DNA of 64,000 bases from Ulota crispa (taxonomy: Eukaryota > Streptophyta > Bryopsida > Orthotrichales > Orthotrichaceae), in contig OY987246.1 in assembly GCA_963920765.1 (NCBI GenBank), positions 17,728,868 through 17,792,867 on the forward strand, read 5' to 3'. A program made the translations under genes and the position numbers. Position 1 is the first letter of the stretch. Every line of letters begins with the position of its first letter. Below the pieces are notes generated by a model, which did not search any database, had not been told where the DNA came from, and saw nothing but the letters and a program-made list of their open reading frames with translations. Shown here piece after piece: positions 10,752 to 12,888 of this stretch.

Positions 10752-12888
10752 ATGATTGACTTCAGCTTGAGGCACATGCATACGGAAAACAGAGGCATGC
10801 TTGGCACCACCGTATTATGTGTACGAAAGGATAAGAAGGTTATTATAATTGGAGATGGGCAAGTTACACTGGGCAATGAAATTATCAAGCCAAATGTCCG
10901 AAAAGTGCGCAGGCTTGGAGCCAACGTTATCGGAGGATTTGCAGGTTAGTTGTTGTCATGCTAACATGTGTGGTGAGACTGAAACTTCTATACTTTAGTA
11001 AATCAACTATGTTTTTGGTATATTTTGAGTGAGCTAAACACGAAGGCCATGAGATGCTAGGGCTAATTGTCTCTGAGCATGAACTAGTAAGGTGGAGGAT
11101 ACCATTTGCGTTATCTTAAGCATTTTAACATATGTTTGAGTATAGAGCTGTGAAGAGATCTTTGGGTGCACGAGCCAGATCCGTTGAGATATGTATATTC
11201 TTTTTACCACCATGTATGAAATTCCTATGCATTTATTCAAAGTTCGAGGTTGTGTACCACTATTGAAGGGATAAGAGACAATCCCATTTTCATTCAAATA
11301 CCAATGGCCAGAGTTATTTGGCCAAGTCATTTACAGCACTTGCCAATCAGCTCAACCAAGTTTTGTCTGAATAGACGGATTGTTATTGGCAATAGGGTCA
11401 ATATAGAAGACGAGATCAGGTCTCTAATGATTTTAGTGTCCTCCACCTTACTTGAGGATTATTTTGCTTTGGACTGGTCTTGCTGTACAGTTTATGACAG
11501 ACGCAACTTGCTAACGATGGAAGGGGGTTGTGTTGTAGGCGGTACTGCTGATTCGTTCACTCTGTTTGAGAGATTGGAATCCAAGCTTGAAGAACACTCT
11601 GGTATTTGTCTTACTAAACTTTTGGTCTTGTCTATTAATTTCTCCTTTGCTTCAAGCTCATCTTTGGAGTAGTAGATATAACTTTAGTATACTTAAAAAT
11701 GTGTGATGGTTTATCTACTGGGGATCCTTGCGTAGTTTTAAAGTCCTAGGATTTCATGAGATCAGGGAGAAGTTTTATATTGGTATGTCTGATAGTCTGG
11801 TCCTGAGGGTCATTCATTCAACAGCAAGCTATGTTATATAGCTTGTTTCTTTTATGGCTGAATTTAACGCTGGTGTTGGTTGCAGGCCAGGTATAAGGAG
11901 TGCAAAGGATATGATTGTTGCTATTATCATTTTCCTCATATCACGTGATTTGCTGTTCCTAAACCCGTTAGGTCTGCATTTGTTGCTCAATGGAGTAGCC
12001 AGGGGATGGTGAAACCGGCCCGTTGATTTTTTTGACCTGGGGGATCTGTTGACAGCTGACAAGAGCTGCAGTGGAGCTTGCCAAAGCCTGGCGTACGGAT
12101 AAGTTTCTCAGGCGTCTTGATGTATGTCTCTTTTCCTCTCATCTCAACTGAATAATGTGTATTTCTTCTTTTGATGTTATAGATTATCTAGTTTGTTGGA
12201 AATGAAAAGCCATGCCTTGAGTGGGTTTGGGTGCAGGCTGTTATGGTCGTTTCAGATGCTGAAATCTCTTTGACTATTACTGGGAATGGAGATGTTCTAG
12301 AGCCTTACGACGGTGTTATAGGTACGAAATATACTTTTTAAGTTTCGTCCTGCTTTTCATGCAACCTTATGTGGTGTTCACTATTGGATTGCGATCTACT
12401 ACATCCCATTAAATGGAGTTATTCTCTCAATCTCTTGTTTTTCCTGGTAGTCATGCTAAGGATTGCTATGTATGGGTTTGTATCTTTCCAGGTATTGGGT
12501 CTGGAGGTTCGTATGCTTCAGCAGCTGCAAGGGCTCTTATTGATCTACCTGATTGGGATGCTGAAGCAATTGGTGAGTGTGCTTGGATGCTAGGACGTGC
12601 TTCGAGTTAATATTGCTGGTTCTATTTGAAACAATGATGTTCATTTCCAACTTATTTCTGCGACATTTAGTCTCTCACAGTATGAACTGGGATGTTGATG
12701 GTTGTGTGGTTGGATTTGTGGTGTGGGGGGTTTTGTGGGACTTTTCAGCCAAGAAAGCTATGAAGATTGCAGCAGATTGTTGCATTTACACGAACCACAA
12801 CTTCACAATTGAGCAAATCGATGTCGCCCAAAGAAGCTTGGAGGAGGTGGAGCAAGCGGCTGTTTTATCTACCTCAGAGCCTTGCTAG
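10752..12888 (+). CDS. HSLV: HslV-type ATP-dependent protease proteolytic subunit, 7 exons with a 5-nt micro-exon
   Basis: Exons: 10752-10944, 11539-11601, 11886-11890, 12056-12121, 12237-12321, 12492-12572, 12749-12888 (210 aa). HslV forms a double hexameric threonine-protease ring that works with the HslU ATPase unfoldase; eukaryotic copies are usually mitochondrial. Seen here: the nucleophile Thr19 of GTTVLCVRK, which becomes residue 1 after processing; GDGQVTLGN; Lys51 of NVRKVRR, equivalent to catalytic Lys33; GGFAGGTADSFTLFE; TGNGDVLEP; IGSGG (139-143); IYTNHN (178-182). All introns are GT-AG. The third exon is only 5 nt (GCCAG) and is needed to give Gly86-Gln87 and keep frame. The start is uncertain. 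ATG 10752 gives an 18-residue leader, short for a presequence, and a TTCAG acceptor at 10766 would allow a further 5' exon, but I found no in-frame one. HslU is not in the window. Confidence 0.9.
11886..11890 (+). other. HSLV: 5-nt micro-exon of the HslV gene
   Basis: GCCAG lies between a good acceptor (TTGGTTGCAG) and a good donor (GTATAAG), with introns of 284 and 165 nt on either side. The preceding exon ends in phase 1 (TCT G) and the next begins CTG ACA AGA in phase 0, with an in-frame TGA just before its CAG. Splicing these two directly shifts the frame. Adding the 5 nt gives GGC CAG and restores HSGQLTRAAVELAK, which matches the family pattern across this junction. Confidence 0.85.

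Follow-up and report, generated by a model that had tools for sequence, protein, structure and literature searches.

Which exon structure allows the HslV peptidase gene of the moss Ulota crispa to be read without interruption, and does this structure include an exon of only five nucleotides? The locus lies in a window, i.e. the whole stretch of 64,000 nucleotides that was analysed, corresponding to bases 17,728,868-17,792,867 of contig 5 in a genome of 274.8 Mb and 157 contigs. A sequence-only reading had placed a 5-nt exon, GCCAG, between two longer exons of the gene, and the coordinates that it gave for these exons and for GCCAG are correct. We extended its model by two coding exons upstream (the first two below), which gives a gene of nine exons encoding 252 aa, with GT-AG introns throughout. 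The features, in the numbering of the window, are the following:

9511..9556, + strand: HslV exon 1; begins with ATG and ends at the donor TGCAA/gtacga; encodes the Arg-containing leader MGIRLLRNPHLLWLA, which matches MGTRLLRHPHLLSLA of Ceratodon
10353..10446, + strand: HslV exon 2; CARGRRLQELDGS...ENQ, which matches CARGRGLQELDGS of the Ceratodon protein P0001
10766..10944, + strand: HslV exon 3; LRHMHTENRGMLGTTVLC...GGFA; contains the Thr-Thr start of the mature enzyme; TIGR03692 begins at residue 61
11539..11601, + strand: HslV exon 4; lies next to the micro-exon on its upstream side and ends in phase 1
11602..11885, + strand: intron A; 284 nt, gt...ttgcag
11886..11890, + strand: predicted 5-nt micro-exon GCCAG; completes a Gly codon (G/GC) and adds Gln (CAG)
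11891..12055, + strand: intron B; 165 nt, gtataa...gacag
12056..12121, + strand: HslV exon 6; LTRAAVELAKAWRTDKFLRRLD; downstream neighbour of the micro-exon, starting in phase 0
12237..12321, + strand: HslV exon 7
12492..12572, + strand: HslV exon 8
12749..12888, + strand: HslV exon 9, with the stop codon

The identification of the gene as HslV, already made from the letters, is confirmed by two curated HslV profiles that score above their cut-offs (TIGR03692, 249.7 bits for a cut-off of 157.75; NF003964, 260.8 bits for a cut-off of 137). The best named protein match among those listed comes from the moss Ceratodon purpureus, with 96% identity over the 195-aa core, and the full 252-aa product aligns to Ceratodon P0001 in 252 columns with 90.5% identity. 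Furthermore, the Thr-Thr of the mature chain is present (G-TTVLC, aligned to TTIVSV of solved HslV chains), and TIGR03692 begins there. When the core protein was searched against the whole genome, all six matches fell inside this gene and no second core copy was found; at the sensitivity of this search, the HslV gene is single copy.

Several other elements of the window were recorded. Five tandem copies of a 141-nt unit extend from inside HslV exon 1 across most of intron 1 (9521-10222), and the end of exon 1, donor included, recurs in every copy, so that TGGCTTGCAA/GTACGA occurs at five places. Read-through from exon 1 into this array meets a stop after 48 residues, before the second donor; therefore, from this ATG, only the first donor yields HslV protein. 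Away from the gene, open frames at 22401-24497 resemble exons of a membrane amino-acid transporter, as judged from the letters only, and TGCCATGCA is present in seven near-perfect tandem copies at 62123-62187. No Rfam match at the gathering threshold was found within the window.

The frame problem is located between exons 4 and 6. Exon 4 ends with ...CACTCTG/gtattt, one base into a Gly codon (phase 1), and exon 6 starts after gttgacag with CTGACAAGA, i.e. with a whole Leu codon (phase 0). As the sequence-only reading had stated, their direct joining breaks the frame: 15 new residues (ADKSCSGACQSLAYG) are followed by a stop, and the protein is 142 aa long. In contrast, inclusion of GCCAG, which is preceded by ttggttgcag and followed by gtataagg, restores the frame and gives S-G-Q-L-T-R-A, with the conserved Gly-Gln that had been claimed. 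Within 148 sequences, conservation is at least 90% at each of Gly71, Gln72 and Leu73 of the core protein encoded in the window. In the alignment to E. coli HslV, the micro-exon covers Gly69 (two of its three bases) and residue 70. Introns A and B are five bases apart in the coding sequence.

Inside the 454-nt gap between exons 4 and 6, GCCAG is the only AG/5 nt/GT. Among 20,000 dinucleotide shuffles of the gap, some AG/5 nt/GT is present in 89%, whereas AG/GNCAR/GT, the general form encoding Gly-Gln, is found at least once in 1.4%; hence it is the Gly-Gln content that is decisive. Across the whole window, AG/GNCAR/GT occurs at five places, both strands included, i.e. 0.018 per 454 nt.

Splice sites were scored with a matrix built from the seven other donors and seven other acceptors of the HslV gene, which flatters those sites. 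Among the 26 AGs of the gap, the acceptor of the micro-exon (AG at 11885) scores best, and among the 35 GTs its donor comes second, behind a GT at 11783 that scores higher (9.47) and lies outside the model. Thus, of the "strong AG and GT sites" that had been announced, the AG deserves the term, but the GT was slightly overrated, its score of 5.85 being below the 7.77-9.83 of the seven other donors from which the matrix was built. As predicted from DNA, GCCAG is internal, five nucleotides long and bordered by GT-AG introns on both sides, as plant micro-exons are.

The strongest support for the predicted micro-exon comes from the gene models of other land plants, a comparison made on their proteins and not on their DNA. 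Indels in the core are found in 69 of 147 homologues, mostly in a loop at aa 38-43, and six rows show a 1-aa gap at 140. At aa 69-73, only seven of the 147 have an indel. One of these (P0142) is an unnamed protein with a 1-aa difference, and the remaining six are models from named eukaryotes:

P. patens model: HSG-NVW-QLTRA, with NVW inserted
Marchantia model P0009: HPG-KTS-LTRA, with KTS replacing Q
Riccia sorocarpa model: HP-AVELAK, six residues missing
Adiantum nelumboides model: HS-AVELAK, six residues missing
Klebsormidium model P0050: GQ-VRTLFS-LIRA, with VRTLFS inserted
Cymbomonas model P0123: GQ-18 residues-LTRS, with 18 aa inserted

Ten land-plant models are named (Ceratodon, P. patens, Sphagnum, Selaginella, Diphasiastrum, R. 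fluitans, Marchantia, R. sorocarpa, Ceratopteris and Adiantum). Four of them carry any core indel, and in all four it is at the Gly-Gln site, which bears out the earlier warning that annotation software misjoins this gene here. The other six are regular (SGQLTRA or PGQLTRA) and are silent on the intron pair. For Marchantia, a second protein, P0006, encoded on a 1,294-nt contig, is available. The two sequences are 98.85% identical over 261 columns with one 2-residue gap, P0009 being aligned over its full length from residue 15 of P0006. Apart from the longer N-terminus of P0006, which starts 14 residues earlier, their sole difference is KTS in P0009 for Q in P0006. P0006 is probably derived from RNA, since it is an uninterrupted 273-aa frame on a contig this short, labelled 'lgn'.

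On the genetic code, the extra residues would fit donors that were translated through: GK as G/GTAAR, GNV as G/GTAAYGT and Q-VR as CAG/GTRAGR. The insertion of P. patens could be genuine. The irregularities in the models of P. patens and Marchantia, and likewise those of Riccia sorocarpa and Adiantum nelumboides, appear to be what a missed micro-exon would produce. Since the models of four land plants are irregular at exactly this site, the micro-exon is probably old, of land-plant age. In the algal models of Klebsormidium and Cymbomonas, Gly-Gln is directly followed by an insertion that starts with Val-Arg, a hint that intron B predates land plants; P0088, a relative of the Cymbomonas protein, is without insertion. 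We lean towards a history in which the 5-nt phase-1 exon is an ancient land-plant micro-exon common to mosses, liverworts and ferns. It would have arisen through the gain of a phase-1 intron, five bases upstream of a phase-0 intron that green algae already possessed. The algal age of this phase-0 intron is suggested by Klebsormidium and Cymbomonas, which continue Gln with Val-Arg as a donor CAG/GTRAGR would read. In the same history, the exon would be absent from the published clusters because flowering plants are without HslV, and the gene models now public for P. patens, Marchantia, R. sorocarpa and A. nelumboides would be wrong at this site.

Other ways of restoring the frame were compared by enumerating direct joins, donors at 11560-11760, acceptors at 11900-12110 and any single other extra exon. 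Of the 25,833 joins tried, 234 had no extra exon and 25,599 had a single one of 1-51 nt; together they gave 1,988 distinct open proteins. These were scored with a profile of 138 of the 148 aligned sequences; neither this gene nor Ceratodon entered it, nor did the six irregular models and two further rows. The GCCAG model ranks first with 384.3 bits, and the runner-up (376.7 bits) is GCCAG with a donor six bases later. Since the profile contains the Gly-Gln of other plants, what the scores reflect is conservation, and they provide no evidence independent of it. A single intron with another donor or acceptor could join exons 4 and 6 in frame, with a few residues gained or lost and no micro-exon. 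Such solutions are found in the models of P. patens (HSGNVWQLTRA) and Marchantia (HPGKTSLTRA), and a join 11624/12056 would be open in the window. However, the best of the 234 joins without extra exon only ranks 34th, with 368.9 bits, and replaces Gln by seven residues, at a place where 140 of 147 homologues are without indel; the Marchantia model is contradicted by P0006. This arrangement is thus very improbable. Use of a different tiny exon, for instance GA at 11898-11899 (giving HSG-LTRA) or ATCAGGGAGAA at 11761-11771, would restore the frame as well. It is hardly credible, since these two exons reach 374.0 and 375.6 bits respectively against 384.3 for GCCAG, lose or alter Gly-Gln and bypass the best-scoring acceptor of the gap. 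Gly-Gln could also come from a non-canonical acceptor preceding GACAG at 12051, but this option was set aside, as the intron would then end in TT and not in AG.

Two further explanations were considered. If the gene were decaying, the frame would simply be broken between exons 4 and 6, as it is without the 5-nt exon. We give almost no credence to this explanation: the other exons are open and the introns are GT-AG, the core search revealed no second copy in the genome, the product keeps its 90.5% identity to Ceratodon, and an HslU partner is present. The other explanation, which we consider unlikely, is a tandem or recursive acceptor, TTGCAG/GCCAG/GT, in which either AG would be usable and the second would regenerate a donor, a switch to non-functional transcripts tuning the level of HslV. 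AG and GT are indeed juxtaposed at 11889-11892, and in the acceptor scores of the gap this second AG comes next after the best one (9.67). Its use followed by removal of intron B would amount to exon skipping (142 aa), and its use with intron B kept would give 167 aa, both outcomes being broken frames. However, this juxtaposition is common to any exon that ends with AG before GT.

With these alternatives weighed, we consider it very probable that the moss HslV gene has a genuine coding micro-exon in GCCAG at 11886-11890. When it is skipped, the 142-aa protein is obtained; when intron A is kept, the protein has 150 aa; when intron B is kept, a stop follows directly after Gly-Gln-Val and the protein has 130 aa. 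Among the skipping, retention and inclusion outcomes compared, HslV is made by inclusion alone. Because skipping the exon or retaining either intron gives a premature stop, inclusion is probably near-constitutive. The micro-exon would be too short for exon definition; intron definition is the probable mode of recognition for both introns, which would be removed in succession. If intron B were spliced out first, GCCAG would head a normal 71-nt exon, after which intron A could be cut out. This order is proposed on the basis of a published tendency: according to Yu et al. 2022 (PMC8831610), the introns flanking plant micro-exons are likely removed sequentially and the upstream one tends to be detained and removed later.

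The peptidase would also have its partner. The search for the HslU family (TIGR00390) gave six exon-sized matches on contig 3, all below the whole-protein cut-off because each corresponds to one exon. At the single-exon level this search is unspecific, as all 14 control genomes also gave matches, and the contig-3 pieces were therefore rescanned to tell HslU from ClpX. Five of the six pieces were compared with all NCBIfam and HslU was the best family in each of the five (for instance, 84.0 bits for HslU vs 32.3 for ClpX in one piece), which identifies them as HslU. For a seventh match, on contig 9, the best family is FtsH. On these matches, the predicted HslU partner is encoded on contig 3 of the same genome. 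Judged by inspection of the leader only, the moss HslV peptidase probably works in mitochondria.

What is new here is the addition of HslV, as predicted from genomic DNA, to the known class of plant micro-exons. This points to a concrete correction of a conserved gene for which several plant genomes, Marchantia and P. patens among them, have public models. It also suggests that micro-exons in genes lost from flowering plants can escape catalogues built mainly on those plants. Moreover, the origin and persistence of micro-exons could be studied well on a 5-nt exon whose two introns may differ in age. No publication was found in the literature searched that combines microexon (in this spelling) with HslV, and none, judged by title and abstract start, on the gene structure of plant HslV; on 5-nt or moss microexons, Yu et al. 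alone was found.

In their main text, Yu et al. (PMC8831610) report for ten species a total of 2,398 micro-exons of 1-15 nt, with 45 conserved clusters, 35 of which are common to flowering plants and moss. Like the plant micro-exons of 1-15 nt presented there and in MEPDB (PMC12409088), the HslV exon is predicted to be internal, coding and flanked by GT-AG introns. Its length is not a multiple of 3, as for about half of the plant micro-exons published in PMC8831610, and the kinds of misannotation reported there (skipping, extension of a neighbouring exon) are the same as at the HslV site. HslV is not named in the main texts, supplements apart, of PMC8831610 and PMC12409088. The species table of Yu et al. 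(PMC8831610) has P. patens and S. moellendorffii as its non-flowering plants, so that a gene without flowering-plant copies could form no cluster. If flowering plants lack HslV, its exon would thus be beyond the reach of the published clustering rule. No seed plant is named among the 120 best rows of either HslV protein search, in which scoring covered only the 8,000 candidates that share most words and many rows are unnamed.

Some published exons come particularly close. Cluster 7 of Yu et al. (Peptidase M1; PMC8831610) is a 5-nt phase-1 exon, of the same size and phase as the HslV exon; it belongs to a different gene family and nothing suggests a relation between the two. The same main text reports RT-PCR of a 5-nt exon for rice Os08t0562700. 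Known plant micro-exons reach down to 1 nt, and the 1-nt exons of APC11 and VPS55 have been confirmed in plants by RNA-seq and RT-PCR (PMC8831610). The statement that the exon in HslV is near the lower limit for splicing was therefore too strong. The exons of APC11 and VPS55 resemble that of HslV in being ultra-short, coding and present in land plants, also outside flowering plants, and differ from it in length and in the gene concerned; some plants make VPS55 forms both with the exon and without it (PMC8831610).

The protein itself belongs to a system shared by bacteria and eukaryotes. The moss gene is like HslV (ClpQ) of both in its sequence family, its Thr-Thr start, its conserved core and its HslU partner. 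To our knowledge, bacterial HslV genes are without such introns, and the split Gly-Gln site is, in contrast to bacterial HslV, a feature of plant gene structure.
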